The position numbers and the translations under genes were made by a program. DNA of 41,265 nt from Armatimonadota bacterium (GTDB taxonomy: Bacteria; Armatimonadota; UBA5829): contig JAAYKE010000070.1 in NCBI GenBank assembly GCA_012522575.1, positions 1 to 41,265 on the forward strand, in the 5' to 3' direction. Every line of letters starts with the position of its first letter. The stretch's first letter is position 1. Shown in pieces: positions 9,839 through 35,195 of the stretch. The notes beneath the pieces are model-generated. The model was not told the origin of the DNA, searched no databases, and saw nothing but the letters and a program-made list of their open reading frames with translations.

Positions 9839-9909
9839 CCTGACGGCCTGCTGAAGTGTCTTGTTATAATCATTCCAAGAAAGGACCTTTTATCGCAGAA
9901 CAAAATAGC

Positions 9910-9967
9910 GTAACCTCTCACGAATGATGATTAATACTGTCCGTAGTGTCCGATCTCCGTCTCGGAC
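9910..9967. repeat. 58-bp dispersed repeat, copy 1
   Basis: A 58-bp stretch ending in GATCTCCGTCTCGGAC matches 41161-41218 in the same orientation with about 49 of 58 bases identical by eye. Both copies are intergenic. The core resembles the TCCGAGGTCAGATGTCCGA module of the other repeats. Confidence 0.7.
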
Positions 9968-10018
9968 TGCGCCAGGACAGATGTCAGCTGCCTACTATAC
10001 TTGAATGCTCCAAGTTAA

Positions 10019-10137
10019 TTGTCATTCCGAGGCAAATGCCGAGGAATCTGCTTTTTCCCTTCTCTTTTCCGGGTTTCGCTTCTTTCGAGCTTTCGCGATT
10101 TGCGTAAAAGCAGATTTCTCACTTCGTTCGAAATGAC
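10019..10137. repeat. ~120-bp MITE-like element with inverted ends
   Basis: The left end reads GTCATTCCGAGG then GAATCTGCTTTTT; the right end reads AAAAGCAGATTTCTC then CGAAATGAC, its imperfect inverted complement. The middle holds the TTTCGCTTCTTTCG module also present at 13.9, 25.6 and 34.6 kb. There is no ORF. I could not define a target duplication. Confidence 0.6.
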
Positions 10138-10149
10138 ATACCAATATAA

Positions 10150-10166
10150 TCACTCACAAAGAGTGA
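10150..10166 (-). terminator. Possible terminator of the lepA-lipA operon
   Basis: TCACTC-TTTGT-GAGTGA forms a 6-bp stem, followed on the minus strand by the AT-rich TTATATT. It is about 60 nt after lipA. The T tract is weak. Confidence 0.35.
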
Positions 10167-10223
10167 GTTGTTACAAAATAGCCTGTTTAGTGACATTCAG
10201 CCCAATATAGATTCTTGGCCGCC

Positions 10224-11102
10224 TCAGCTACGTAACTTAGGGCTTGTTTGGCTGGCAGCGTGGTAGGAACTGCGCACCAGCGGGCCGGATTCAACGTGGG
10301 AAAAGCCCATTTCCAATCCTGTTGCGCGCAGTTGATCGAATTCTTCGGGCGTATAGTATCTGGAAATAGGGTGGTGATGCGGAGTCGGAGCCAGATATTG
10401 ACCGATTGTGAGGATGTCGCAGCCCGCCGAGCGAAGATCCCGCATAGCCTCCATCAGCTCATCGCCGGTCTCAGATACGCCAACCATAATGCCTGATTTG
10501 GTGCGCAACTTCGCATCGAACTCTTTTGCCTTACGCAGCAGTTCAATCGAACGGCGATACTCAGCCTGCGGGCGGATTTGCGGATAGCATCGGCTTACTG
10601 TCTCGATATTATGGTTCAGTATATCCGGCTTTGCATCGACAACTGCCCTGAGAGCCTCTGAGCTACCCTGAAAATCCGGAATCAACACTTCAATGGCGCA
10701 TTCCGGCAGGGTGTTTTGAATATGAACAATCGTCTGTGCAAAGATAGAAGCGCCGCCGTCCGGGAGATCATCTCTGGTGACACTTGTGATCACAGCGTGT
10801 TTCAGGCCGAGATATTTCACCGCTTCGGCTACCCTGCGCGGCTCATCTTCGTCCAGCGGCAGCCTTTTGAGATTAGCTGCGCCGGTCCAGCACGATGGAA
10901 CCGCGCAAAATCGGCAATCCCTCGTGCAAGTGTTGCCTAATATCATAAAAGTGGCGGTTCGCTCGCGCCAGCATTCGCCGATATTCGGACAGCACGCGCT
11001 CTGACATACCGTATGGAGGCGGGCGGATTCCACCAGGTTTCTCAGCTCGTGATACTCAGCCCCATCCGGAGCCTTTGCTTTGATCCAGGAAGGTCTATTC
11101 AT
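10224..11102 (-). CDS. lipA: Lipoyl synthase
   Basis: This 292-residue radical-SAM enzyme has both iron-sulfur signatures: the auxiliary cluster motif CQSACCPNIGEC and the SAM-cluster CTRDCRFC, plus the C-terminal RSSYHA that supplies the serine ligand. It inserts two sulfur atoms into octanoyl groups on lipoyl domains. ATG at 11102 gives the usual MNRPSWIKAKAP start and overlaps the upstream stop by 8 nt (ATGAATAG); a longer reading frame to 11141 would overlap more and is unlikely. It is last in lepA / TIM-barrel / lipA. No lipB or lipoate ligase is visible in the window. Confidence 0.95.
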   Translation of the reverse strand: MNRPSWIKAKAPDGAEYHELRNLVESARLHTVCQSACCPNIGECWRERTATFMILGNTCTRDCRFCAVPSCWTGAANLKRLPLDEDEPRRVAEAVKYLGLKHAVITSVTRDDLPDGGASIFAQTIVHIQNTLPECAIEVLIPDFQGSSEALRAVVDAKPDILNHNIETVSRCYPQIRPQAEYRRSIELLRKAKEFDAKLRTKSGIMVGVSETGDELMEAMRDLRSAGCDILTIGQYLAPTPHHHPISRYYTPEEFDQLRATGLEMGFSHVESGPLVRSSYHAASQTSPKLRS

Positions 11103-13755: not shown

Positions 13756-13785
13756 ATTTTACCAGAGACAGGCTAATAGTAGCAA
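13756..13785 (-). promoter_or_regulatory. Promoter of the lepA operon
   Basis: Minus strand: TTGCTA (13780-13785), an 18-nt spacer and TAAAAT (13756-13761). The lepA ATG begins 8 nt beyond the -10, where transcription itself should start. Confidence 0.5.
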
Positions 13786-13792
13786 TTGGTAA

Positions 13793-14114
13793 TAGAGGTT
13801 AGGGTTTAGAGGTTAGAGGTTAGAAGTTAGAGGTTAGAAGGATTATTGAGAGGGTGTGCGGTTTACCGTATCGGACATCTGACCTCGGACATCGAAAAAA
13901 GCAGATTTATTGTATTTTTGGGAAAGCGCGAAAGAAGCGAAAGCCGGAAAAAACTATAAGGTATCGTAATAGGGGTAGCCTAAGAAGGCTTGATCGAACT
14001 TCGGACATCTGACCTCGGACCCCCATTCCCAACCTCTAACCTCTAACTTCTAACCTCCAGACCGACCTCGGACATCGAAAAAAGCAGATTTCTCGCTGCG
14101 CTCGAAATGACATA
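13793..14114. repeat. Repeat element A with inverted heptamer arrays
   Basis: This fills the lepA / URO-D intergenic gap. The left arm (13793-13840) is a run of TTAGAGG/TTAGAAG-type heptamers; the right arm (14019-14058) carries the complement (AACCTCTAACCTCTAACTTC). Between them lie the GGACATCTGACCTCGGAC and CGCGAAAGAAGCGAAAG modules. Bases 13871-14083 are the reverse complement of 34500-34720, with about 100 consecutive identical bases. A GCAGATTTCTC...CGAAATGACAT tail ends at 14114. There is no ORF. Confidence 0.85.
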
Positions 14115-14115
14115 G

Positions 14116-15279
14116 TTATCGATTGAGAGCTTTTCGGAGGGCGTCAGTATAGTACTGCACGTTTTCCCAAACAGCATCATCGGCTATTCTATGATCCGGG
14201 CACGGGATAAACCCGCCGAGGTCGACTAGCCGAACCAGCCGCTCCACTTCTTCATCTATAGCGGCATAGTCCTGAGCCAGGACGTGTTTGCGCATTCCCC
14301 CTACTCCAAGCGCCTGCTTTCCGTATTTCTCCCGCCAGTTGGCGATGCTCGCACCCCATGTTCCTACCTCGATCGGGAACATCACGTTGACTCCGTTTTC
14401 CAGCCAGATCGGAACCAGCGCGTCGATCATGCCGTCACAGTCCAGAGAAACCAGATTGATGCCATAGGATGCGAGCAGTTCGGTAATACGCCTGTAGTGC
14501 GGCCCTACGTGTTCGGCAAAAAACTTTGGATTGACCAGCGGCCCGCTTCTGTAGCATATATCCTCCCATAGGTGGCCTATATCAAACAGCGCGCCGGTCT
14601 CAAGAGTTGCTTTGGCGCATTGATAGCACAATTCCGCGCACACATCAATCATCTCGATGACAAGATCAATGTCATCTGCGATCAGATAGCACAGGTTTTC
14701 CATGCCCACGTAGTCGCGAATAGCTCCATAGAGGCTGCCGCAGTGGATTAAATAGTGATCCTCTCTATTGGGTTGCTTTAGATACTCCAGACCGCCCTGG
14801 TCGAACGGCTTCATATCGGTCTCGCAGTTGACCCACGCGCCCGTTACGCGATCCATAGAGAACTGCAGACGCGGCACAAATAGCTCCTCCCATTCCTTGC
14901 GGCCTTTCAGGATATGGTCGAACTCCATCGGGATGCCTGTAGCTCCCTGCCTTTGCAGGATTATTACTCCGTGACCGGTCTGGATTTTTTGTGAGCCGTC
15001 CGGGAGAACTTCGATTACTTTGGTCTCAAATCCCGGTGCAATCCTGGTGTTTGGGGAAAACACTCTATGATAGGCCAGATCAAAGCCTAGACGCTTTGTT
15101 AACGGCTCAAGCCTGACATCACCATCGCCACAGCGCGCCTCGTTGTATTCCTGCTCATTAAGATGACCTTCTTTTCTCCATCTGTCCAGAGTCTCTCCGA
15201 GAAACCCAAAATGCAGGATGGGCAGGTAGTCATAAGGTTCATAATTTAAGGCTGCGAGAATCCGCTCTCTGTTAGTCAC
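14116..15279 (-). CDS. Uroporphyrinogen decarboxylase (URO-D) family protein
   Basis: The 387-residue protein starts with the family phrase MTNRERILAALNYEPYDYLP and has a TIM-barrel layout with GSLYGAIRDYVGMENLCYLI, LVSLDCDGMIDALVP and GGFIPCPDHRIADDAVWENV. It belongs to the divergent URO-D-like group related to HemE and corrinoid methyltransferases. It is probably not HemE, because no other haem genes are near, and a methyl-transfer or unknown role is likelier. The start is GTG at 15279 with a GGGAGA site. It stands alone behind a strong promoter, divergent from the protease. Confidence 0.75.
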   Translation of the reverse strand: MTNRERILAALNYEPYDYLPILHFGFLGETLDRWRKEGHLNEQEYNEARCGDGDVRLEPLTKRLGFDLAYHRVFSPNTRIAPGFETKVIEVLPDGSQKIQTGHGVIILQRQGATGIPMEFDHILKGRKEWEELFVPRLQFSMDRVTGAWVNCETDMKPFDQGGLEYLKQPNREDHYLIHCGSLYGAIRDYVGMENLCYLIADDIDLVIEMIDVCAELCYQCAKATLETGALFDIGHLWEDICYRSGPLVNPKFFAEHVGPHYRRITELLASYGINLVSLDCDGMIDALVPIWLENGVNVMFPIEVGTWGASIANWREKYGKQALGVGGMRKHVLAQDYAAIDEEVERLVRLVDLGGFIPCPDHRIADDAVWENVQYYTDALRKALNR

Positions 15280-24137: not shown

Positions 24138-25556
24138 ATGATTCTTTCAATAGACCTTGGCACTTCCAAAATCTGCGCAGCGGTCATTCAAATAGACTCA
24201 GGACTGCCGCTTGCGATACGTTCGCGTAGCAACGATGCCGATGTGCCGAACCTCGCGGACGACTTGCACGAACAAGACCCATATCGTATTCGAGAGATAT
24301 GCTTCGAATTGATACGCGAGACGCTTGCCGATGAATCGGTCGCGCACAAACCCATCCAAGCAATCGCCATTTCCGGACAGATGCACGGCGTGCTGCTGGT
24401 CGATCGGTCAGTCAATCCTATAACTAACTTGATAACCTGGAGGGATCGCAGGACTGCGCGAGAGGGTGCGCCGGGCAGCATAATTGAATCGCTGGAACTG
24501 CTTGATGATGAAGCCATAAATCGGACCGGGTGCAGGCTGGCTGTCGGATATGGAGCGGCAACTCTGAGATGGCTCAATCAAAATGGAATGATCCCTCCGA
24601 ATTGCACGGCATTGACTATAGCCGGGTTCATCGCCGCATCCCTTTGTGGCAGATCCGCTATCGATGAGACACATGCAGCGAGTTGGGGAATCCTTGAGCT
24701 TGGAAAGAACCGGTGGGATCAACGCTGCACAGTCGATCTCGGGCTATTGCCAAAGCTGCTGCCTGAGATTGTCGCCTCCGGCACGCCGATGGGTGAGATT
24801 AGCGACAATATGAGAGCCGAAATTGAAACAGAAGGCCCTGCGGTGGTGTGCTCACCTGTTGGAGATTGCCAGGCAAGCGTGATTGGATGTGCGGGGTTTT
24901 CTTCCGATACGGTCGTGGTCAACTTGGGAACCGGTGCGCAAATATCAATACCGGGCGCAGTCGCTGCATATACAGATGAGTGGGACGCGTGGCCTAGGCC
25001 GTTTGGCGGATATCTGCAACTTGGGGCGGCGTTGTGCGGCGGGTGGGCGTATGCTTATCTGAGGCAGTTCTATCAACAGATAGCATGCGAAGTGTGCGGC
25101 GTTCAACTCAGCGATGAGGCTGTGTATGAGGCAATGAATGCACTGGCGGCTTCGGCTGATGTCGATGCGGGAGGGTTGATAGTCGATACTCGATTCTCTG
25201 GAACTCGTAAGGATAAACAACCAAAAGGGGCTATTGCTGGTATAAATACGTTTAACTTTAGCCCTGATAATTTGACACTTGCTTTTTTGGAAGGAATAGT
25301 TCGAGACCTGCATTCTATGCTGCTTACCTCAGGCTCCGATTGCGCGGCAAGAGTTGTTGCCAGCGGCAATGCTGTCCGAAAGAACCCCGTGCTTGGCTTG
25401 GTCATACAGCGCGTCTTCGACCGGGATTGCTTTATATCCGCCTTGCCGGAAGAAGCGGTTCGAGGAGCGGCTTATGCTGCAGCAGTCGGCGTTGGGGCTG
25501 TCGATGCGGCGGGTATTACTGCTAAGATCAGGGGATTTGTTGAGCCGATAGGCTGA
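24138..25556 (+). CDS. FGGY-family carbohydrate kinase
   Basis: About 472 residues with the two actin-like lobes of sugar kinases: ILSIDLGTSKICAAV (phosphate 1), AIAISGQMHGVLLVD, TWRDRRTAREG, the glycine motif VVVNLGTGAQISIP and VVASGNAVRKNPVLGLVIQRVF (adenosine region). The GQMHG and the ITWRDRRT phrase resemble xylulokinase and sedoheptulokinase more than glycerol kinase; the sugar cannot be fixed. ATG at 24138 gives the conserved start; an in-frame TTG at 24117 lies inside the upstream terminator. No clear ribosome site is seen. It stands alone between the amidase and the flagellar block. Confidence 0.8.
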   Translation: MILSIDLGTSKICAAVIQIDSGLPLAIRSRSNDADVPNLADDLHEQDPYRIREICFELIRETLADESVAHKPIQAIAISGQMHGVLLVDRSVNPITNLITWRDRRTAREGAPGSIIESLELLDDEAINRTGCRLAVGYGAATLRWLNQNGMIPPNCTALTIAGFIAASLCGRSAIDETHAASWGILELGKNRWDQRCTVDLGLLPKLLPEIVASGTPMGEISDNMRAEIETEGPAVVCSPVGDCQASVIGCAGFSSDTVVVNLGTGAQISIPGAVAAYTDEWDAWPRPFGGYLQLGAALCGGWAYAYLRQFYQQIACEVCGVQLSDEAVYEAMNALAASADVDAGGLIVDTRFSGTRKDKQPKGAIAGINTFNFSPDNLTLAFLEGIVRDLHSMLLTSGSDCAARVVASGNAVRKNPVLGLVIQRVFDRDCFISALPEEAVRGAAYAAAVGVGAVDAAGITAKIRGFVEPIG

Positions 25557-25560
25557 GGGG

Positions 25561-25766
25561 GAAGGGATATAAACGCGAAAGCGCGAAAAGAGCGAAAACC
25601 AGAAACGAATATAATAGTTTTTGAATGTGGCAAAGGCAATATTACTTTATCAGACAACGGACATCTGACTGCGGATATCGAAAAAAAGCAGATTTCTCAC
25701 TTCGTTCGAAATGACAATGAGGGTACGTCCTCCATCATCAACCATCCATCATCAATCATCAACCGA
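25561..25766. repeat. Degenerate repeat remnant and short CATCATCAA tract before flgF
   Basis: GCGAAAGCGCGAAAAGAGCGAAAA (25574 on), GGACATCTGACTGCGGATATCG (25659 on) and GCAGATTTCTCACTTCGTTC (25688 on) are the modules of elements A and B in decayed form. Bases 25731-25764 are a short irregular repeat of CATCATCAACC. Confidence 0.65.
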
Positions 25767-25799
25767 CAAGCGTTAACCGACAACTTCTACAAAAGACGC

Positions 25800-25827
25800 T
25801 AAAGACTATGCCATCACCTGTCGATAA
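25800..25827 (+). promoter_or_regulatory. Sigma-28 (FliA) type promoter of the flagellar operon
   Basis: TAAA (25800-25803), 16 nt and GTCGATAA (25820-25827), close to the TAAA-N15-GCCGATAA consensus. The expected start is about 10 nt before the flgF ATG, and AGGAG is within the short leader. Confidence 0.7.
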
Positions 25828-34163: not shown

Positions 34164-34394
34164 ATGTTAGTTCTGGCAAGAAAAGTCGGGCAATCCATAA
34201 TAATAAACGATAACGTCGAAGTGCTGGTCATAGAGGTTCGCGGAGACCAGGTCAGGCTGGGCATCGAGGCCCCGAGAGCGATTCCTGTACATCGAAAAGA
34301 GCTTTTCGAACAGATTCGAGAGGAAAACATTCGGGCTTCCACGGAAACTGATGTCGAGTCGGCCACCCGCGCCCTGGGCGACACGCAACCCTAA
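34164..34394 (+). CDS. csrA: Carbon storage regulator, RNA-binding protein CsrA
   Basis: The 76-residue protein has the full CsrA core: MLVLARKVGQSIIINDNVEV, VRGDQVRLGIEAPRAIPVHR and KELFEQIREENIRA, with the RNA-contacting Arg near residue 44. The C-terminal 20 residues are variable. It is a dimer that binds GGA motifs in mRNA leaders. ATG at 34164 has an AAAGGA site 9 nt upstream; an open extension to 34113 lacks support. Likely targets here are the flagellin leader sites at 35196-35234. Confidence 0.96.
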   Translation: MLVLARKVGQSIIINDNVEVLVIEVRGDQVRLGIEAPRAIPVHRKELFEQIREENIRASTETDVESATRALGDTQP

Positions 34395-34506
34395 GCTCAG
34401 CGAGCCTCAACAGCTTCATGCTTTTTTGAGGGTGCAAGCTGAATGCGAGCTTTTCGGCTGAGCTTGGGTTATGCTACCCTTGTGTCGCATTTTGCACCCT
34501 TTTTTC
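34388..34506 (+). terminator. Terminator region after csrA with two nested stems
   Basis: AACCC-TAAGCTCAGC (34388-34402, including the csrA stop) pairs with GCTGAGCTT-GGGTT (about 34458-34472). A second stem, GGGTGCAA (about 34431) with TTGCACCC (about 34492-34499), is followed by TTTTTT (34500-34505). The two arms interleave, so they may be alternatives. Confidence 0.5.
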
Positions 34507-34790
34507 GATGTCCGAGGTCGGTCTGGAGGTTAGAAGTTAGAGGTTAGAGGTTGGGAATGGGGGTCCGAGGTCAGATGTCCGAAGTTCGATCAAGCCTTCT
34601 TAGACTACCCCTATTACGATACCATATAGGTATTTCCGGCTTTCGCTTCTTTCGCGCTTTCGCGTTTCCCCAAAAATACAAGAAATCCGCTTTTTTCGAT
34701 GTCCGAGGTCAGATGTCCGAAGTTCGAGCCGGTATCGCAACCCCATTCCCAACCTCTAACCTCTAACTTCCAACTTCTAATCTCTAAATG
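34500..34790. repeat. Repeat element B with inverted heptamer arrays
   Basis: Left arm 34525-34562 (GGTTAGAAGTTAGAGGTTAG and so on) and right arm 34741-34780 (CCCCATTCCCAACCTCTAAC and so on) are inverted copies of each other. Bases 34500-34720 match the reverse complement of 13871-14083, identical for about 100 bases. There is no ORF. It sits between csrA and the flagellin promoter. Confidence 0.85.
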
Positions 34791-34988
34791 TCCTCTGGCT
34801 CCTGCTTATGCCGGCTCCATATTTTGCACGATTATCTCTCTTTGGAACCCGATTTGCATACACAATAAATACCTGCGATTTCGGCAAGTATTATTACCTG
34901 TTTGTGTTATTTAGTGGAACAAATCATTTGAACGTGAATGCATCGTGCGTGCAGTGATTCAAGGAAGAGTTCGCTGCGCTTATTAGGC

Positions 34989-35016
34989 TAAGGTGTTTAG
35001 CCCGTTGTGTCGATAG
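34989..35016 (+). promoter_or_regulatory. Sigma-28 type promoter of flagellin
   Basis: TAAG (34989-34992), 16 nt and GTCGATAG (35009-35016): the same spacing and nearly the same -10 as the flgF promoter. A perfect inverted repeat GGCTAA-N5-TTAGCC (34986-35002) covers the -35. The leader to the ATG is about 220 nt. The rest of 34791-34985 shows no gene. Confidence 0.6.
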
Positions 35017-35195
35017 ATGCTATGGAGAATATACACCCAGCCTTGCCGCGAATGGAGGTGAGGTGGCGGAAAAGCGCCGTAGATAGGTCAGTTCTTTCGC
35101 GCTCAGGATGGATGCGGGGGATGGGACTAATACTTTCAGGTAGGCAGATATGCCCTCCTATTTGTTCGACGAACATTGCTCATTTGGCCTAAAGG

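Follow-up and report, generated by a model that had tools for sequence, protein, structure and literature searches.

The two non-coding elements that lie inverted relative to each other in the window (the whole stretch of 41,265 nucleotides analysed here, which is contig C30 of a 3.06-Mb draft genome in 189 contigs) belong to a family of about 110 copies genome-wide, and the interpretation of this family as an IS-derived MITE of the ordinary kind, with an unusual modular interior containing heptamer arrays, is well supported. The family is very probably of the IS66 / ISBst12 type, an assignment that rests on its ends, on the length of its target duplications and on a complete element found in a relative, and not on a resident enzyme.

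Use of the first of the two elements as query retrieved 116 matching pieces from the genome, and genome-wide searches for the outer ends yielded 94 left and 109 right ends, reversed-pattern controls giving 0. Complete copies start with GTAACAGCTCACGAATGATGAGTA and finish with CACTCACGAAGAGTGAGTTGTTAC, and are mostly 250-340 bp long (about 280 bp), paired copies spanning 108-338 bp. Terminal inverted repeats of the GTAACARCTCAC type were found on 40 paired copies, of which 18 are flanked by a perfect 8-bp target duplication and 26 by one with no more than one mismatch, other exact lengths being rare. The 8-bp duplication has two or more mismatches in 14 of the 40, and in at least two of these (L108 and L026) 7 bp are shared with an offset of one base. 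Such terminal repeats and 8-bp duplications on paired copies are a signature of transposition. Family members show neither coding capacity nor a transposase gene, and no autonomous element with MITE ends was seen at the unpaired left ends, most of them lying at contig ends or in decayed copies. In the 418-kb sample of the genome, taken by stretches, on which the island and array surveys were carried out, repeat islands (40 when detected by k-mers, 38 by modules) appear about once per 10-11 kb and make up ~1.8% of the sequence. Pairwise identity within two subfamilies is ~90%, suggesting that amplification was not very recent. A scan of the window against Rfam gave no match.

The interior of the family was described by means of thirteen modules, defined by eye and mapped with blastn-short. 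A single succession of modules, O1 - Q - W - B (heptamer array) - middle cassette - T - W - O2, was found in the 40 full-length copies, the middle cassette being n u g, C a or M a, with a few internal duplications of a stretch. The passenger modules comprise small hairpins, an older palindrome, TGTCATTCCGAG...CTCACTTCGTTCGAAATGACA, and heptamer arrays, and are optional or interchangeable: heptamer arrays are missing from the commonest full-length form, O1 Q W u g T W O2, and are found in other forms as array B (GARGTTR) and array a (reverse of GATGTCC GAGGTCA GATGTCC GAAGTTC). A 22-bp tandem duplication was also observed at the AAATGACA end of the T module (AGGGTTGACGTTCGAAATGACA-like) in L118, L044 and L123. 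The features assigned to the family within the window are collected in the table.

Table. Copies of the MITE family, and modules mapped in them, along the window
Feature	Position	Strand	Remarks
Left 8-bp target duplication AAAATAGC	9902..9909	.	
Complete MITE copy, 265 bp	9910..10174	+	Architecture O1 Q u g T O2, without heptamer array; terminal repeats, perfect 8-bp duplication
Right 8-bp target duplication AAAATAGC	10175..10182	.	
First element, end-less MITE fragment	13793..14117	+	Architecture B M a G K a b T; aligned to complete relative L003 1480-1843
Heptamer array B (GAGGTTA / GAAGTTA)	13795..13836	+	
Heptamer array A (GATGTCC GAGGTCA GATGTCC)	13873..13893	-	
Heptamer array A, second copy	13996..14016	-	
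Heptamer array B, inverted orientation	14030..14057	-	
T module AAAAGCAGATTTCTCGCTGCGCTCGAAATGACA, common to other genera	14080..14112	+	
Degraded family fragment, modules G, a, T	25571..25716	+	
Second element, end-less MITE fragment	34499..34788	-	Reversed module reading B C a G K a b
Heptamer array B	34526..34553	+	
Heptamer array A	34567..34587	+	
Heptamer array A	34698..34725	+	
Heptamer array B, inverted	34750..34777	-	
Left portion (O1 Q W) of a further MITE copy, truncated by contig end	41161..41265	+	

The inverted repeat pair described in the first-pass annotation was borne out, its arms 13922-14084 / 34499-34661 being 98% complementary over 163 nt and a second pair, 13871-13934 / 34657-34720, being 94% complementary over 64 nt, with ~100 consecutive bases identical between the two elements upon alignment. 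Both elements are intergenic, each situated between called ORFs. Their description as MITE-like stands as regards the kind of element, given the family of ~110 copies with terminal inverted repeats and 8-bp duplications, but neither element is complete, both of them being inner fragments. The view of the inverted TTAGAGG arms as the ends of the elements is not supported, since the arrays of heptamers lie inside as cargo and both copies lack the true ends, GTAACARCTCA; neither module mapping nor alignment revealed a recognisable GTAAC end in either of them. The missing outer ends, as read from the repeat islands, are GTAACAGCTCACGAATGATGAG and, at the opposite end, CACTCACGAAGAGTGAGTTGTTAC.

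A complete relative of these copies, at positions 1480-1843 of L003 (C165), displays the architecture O1 B M a G K a T W O2 and a target duplication matching at 7 of 8 positions (TGTGGAAG/TGTGAAAG), its left end reading GTAACATCTCATGAATG, which is too diverged for the module scan. The two elements of the window are therefore family members stripped of their ends. They fall into the 'B M a G K a T' subfamily, both ends having been lost by deletion. Neither of them shows a clear target duplication. Around the first copy, a candidate duplication matches at 6 of 8 positions (AGCAATTG / ATCGATTG), and only when the ends are shifted. A 9-bp direct repeat, ATTTTGCAC, surrounds the second copy (34488-34497 and 34821-34831) without terminal inverted repeats, and may reflect either chance or another route of insertion. 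Judging from their relatives, the two copies would themselves have been inserted by an IS66-type route; having lost both ends, they should no longer be substrates for a transposase, and they are probably inert leftovers that provide, at most, homology for recombination. The chimeric stretch that they share is 98% identical, compared with the ~90% typical of the family, consistent with either a late duplication or gene conversion. When folded as DNA, the first copy gives one long heptamer-to-heptamer hairpin (z -2.6), which is no proof of a function, the z value for the complete copy of the window being -3.3.

Ends that start with GTAA, together with 8-bp duplications, point to IS66. An example from this family is ISDge4, a member of the ISBst12 group that is bounded by GTGACTACTCAGCA / GTAACTGCTCAGCA and flanked by an 8-bp duplication (PMC12898284). 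A search for IS66 domains was carried out over 121 genomes, namely the own genome and its relatives, and G004, from the same taxonomic family and another genus, was found to contain a complete 1440-bp IS66 element (L306 983-2422) with ends GTAACAGCTCAGTCTTGATGAGTA / GTAACAGCTCACTTTCGATGAGTA, the 8-bp target duplication CGTATTCT and one gene for a 442-aa transposase (NF033517, 1.9e-72; PF03050, 7e-39). The left end of the MITE, GTAACAGCTCACGAATGATGAGTA, agrees with that of this element in its first 11 bases and in GATGAGTA after a 5-base spacer. Both ISDge4 and the L306 element share with the MITE the GTAAC[AT]GCTCA ends and the 8-bp duplication; on the contrary, these ISBst12 insertion sequences measure 1.4 kb and encode a transposase, whereas the MITE measures ~280 bp, has no transposase and carries unrelated passenger modules. 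Elsewhere in the phylum, the IS66-domain loci L304, L312, L314 and L316 are flanked on either side by GTAAC-type motifs, and L312 (887-2704) shows near-identical ends and the 8-bp duplication GCTGACTG.

In the 189-contig draft of the own genome, the search for an IS66 transposase returned a sole PF03050 match below the cut-off, a false one located in the region of the ribosomal-protein gene rplT, and a further search with the L306 transposase, run without a positive control, found nothing. The family may therefore be immobile at present in this genome, no IS66 transposase having been found in the assembly; this absence bears on present mobility, and not on descent. A transposase associated with the same ends was found in G004, of the same taxonomic family, and not in the own genome. 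Rather than only two copies and no related transposase, the outcome that would have told against mobile elements, some 110 copies and an IS66 element in a related genus were encountered. The most plausible course of events is that the MITE ends were acted upon in trans by an IS66 transposase that inserted copies of the elements into intergenic DNA, and that this transposase would later have been lost from the genome, or be missing from the draft.

The TTAGAGG arrays reported in the first-pass annotation are real, being far above chance both in the window and in the 418-kb sample: TTAGAGGTTAGA, with up to two mismatches, has 19 occurrences in the window where 1.5 would be expected, degenerate heptamer arrays number 55 in the sample and 0 in a Markov control, and a 19-base heptamer pattern has 293 matches in the genome (overlapping ones counted) against 0 for the reversed pattern. 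In the sample, tandem repeats most often have a period of seven (36 of 135 arrays), the consensus being AACCTCT in 22 of those 36. Among the 33 B arrays of the sample, 18 lie inside islands with MITE ends and most of the others adjoin inner MITE modules; the tandem 7-bp units are indeed intergenic, and they do not stand free outside a transposable element. Arrays consist mostly of four units, a mode that need not reflect selection because the copies descend from a small number of sources. Other heptamer families (GGCTGAT/AGCTGAC, GGCCCCT and CATCATC/AACCATC) were observed in the same order (L072, L139, L134) and at 25736-25770 of the window, and period 7 seems to be favoured whatever the sequence.

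Considering these arrays, it might be argued that they are themselves the element, as simple-sequence repeats expanding by slippage, comparable to the heptamers of cyanobacteria or Xanthomonas, and that the resemblance to a MITE is secondary. Heptamer arrays lacking IS66-type ends exist in the same order (G016-G018) and, among the matches listed, in many phyla, their overabundance and patchy spread have been published (PMC4692102, PMC4679880), and some copies here show local expansion (12 units in L094, 'a a a a a' in L023). Nonetheless, this explanation is quite improbable, as the arrays have fixed positions within elements that show target duplications, the commonest full-length form (O1 Q W u g T W O2) is entirely free of arrays, and slippage cannot produce 8-bp target duplications. 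Those duplications and that array-free form refute it as an explanation of how the arrays were dispersed in this genome, while slippage is likely as the first origin of the heptamer arrays. Intergenic location, abundance of hairpins, high copy number and composite structure would also suit REP/BIME-type palindromes mobilised by a Y1 (RAYT) transposase, a possibility rendered next to negligible by the lack of any Y1_Tnp (PF01797) match in the genome, control genomes being positive, and by the presence of 8-bp duplications; REP insertion is not known to produce 8-bp duplications around GTAAC ends.

Recombination within the inverted pair, envisaged in the first-pass annotation as inverting the 20-kb segment with most flagellar genes, would amount to a switch; in its favour are the ~100 identical bases, inverted and 20 kb apart, and the different neighbour found on the lepA side in G001, a species of the same genus (~70-73% nucleotide identity here). 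No match to the family was found in G001, whose corresponding gaps measure 45 bp against 398 bp at window 9839-10237, 107 bp against 330 bp at 25489-25819, and 415 bp against 813 bp at 34382-35195. Across the last of these sites, flagellin comes after csrA in G001 as well, a genome that lacks the elements, and collinearity with the window extends from ~24.3 to 39.8 kb; therefore, the 34.5-kb junction is not inverted with respect to that genome. Next to lepA, G001 has another gene order, with the break at the first element (window 13771-14129; L142, L145). The G001 neighbour of lepA is neither the csrA nor the flagellin end, this lepA-side junction thus not being comparable, and, with ~110 copies scattered genome-wide, the pair is not special. 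Inversion of the segment is accordingly not supported, and such a switch is highly unlikely; the inverted pair by itself is no evidence of one, and inversion would be possible only as an unobserved rare isomer in the population.

Cyanobacterial STRRs are heptameric tandem repeats that resemble the present ones in unit length, intergenic position and shortness of the arrays, with another unit sequence. Other heptamer repeats have been described in Xanthomonas and Nostoc (GGGAATC; PMC4692102) and in Beggiatoaceae (TAACTGA; PMC4679880), and share with the present ones the 7-bp unit, the intergenic location and the shortness of the arrays, those of Xanthomonas likewise having mostly four units. 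The arrays described here differ in unit sequence and in being placed inside a transposable element with target duplications. Regarding the dispersal of heptamers, it has been stated that 'no mechanism is evident' (PMC4679880), and the present family offers one concrete way in which heptamer arrays can be dispersed, a question left open by published work on them. It also provides an abundant repeat of a little-studied lineage, probably Armatimonadota, with a named mobilising family, exact ends and target duplications. As in MITEPsy1 (PMC3189936) and MITECca01 (PMC9769881), copies are short, non-coding and scattered, and bear the ends of a parental IS; in contrast to them, the parent is of IS66 type and the interior is modular with heptamer arrays. 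No ISBst12 MITE was found in the literature searched. Pneumococcal BOX elements (PMC3049150) have a similar layout, being likewise intergenic composites whose end modules are conserved and whose middle varies, although the family described here has several different middle cassettes and BOX has one boxB.

Several genera belonging to the family and order contain the inner palindrome TGTCATTTCGAG...GAAATGACA by itself, and in genus g4 it is enclosed by a different flanking inverted repeat, AGAGGTAATTGCAAAAG...TTTTGCAATTGGCTCTT (L063, L073, L074, L135; L064), which suggests a second MITE family with the same cassette. GARGTTA arrays were found, among the matches listed, in Bacteroidota, Cyanobacteria, Armatimonadota and others. 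It is conceivable, and is put forward only tentatively, that an older cassette, formed by the TGTCATT...AATGACA palindrome and heptamer arrays, was captured by different transposon ends depending on the genus, IS66-type here and AGAGGTAATTGCAAAAG in g4. If so, MITEs would be the vehicles that spread heptamer arrays, and would provide a route for their patchy spread between phyla.

Finally, it serves as a warning that the breaks between contigs of this genome are prone to lie in MITE repeats. These repeats probably break the assembly of the draft, and several contigs other than the window likewise terminate at most a few hundred bases away from MITE ends.
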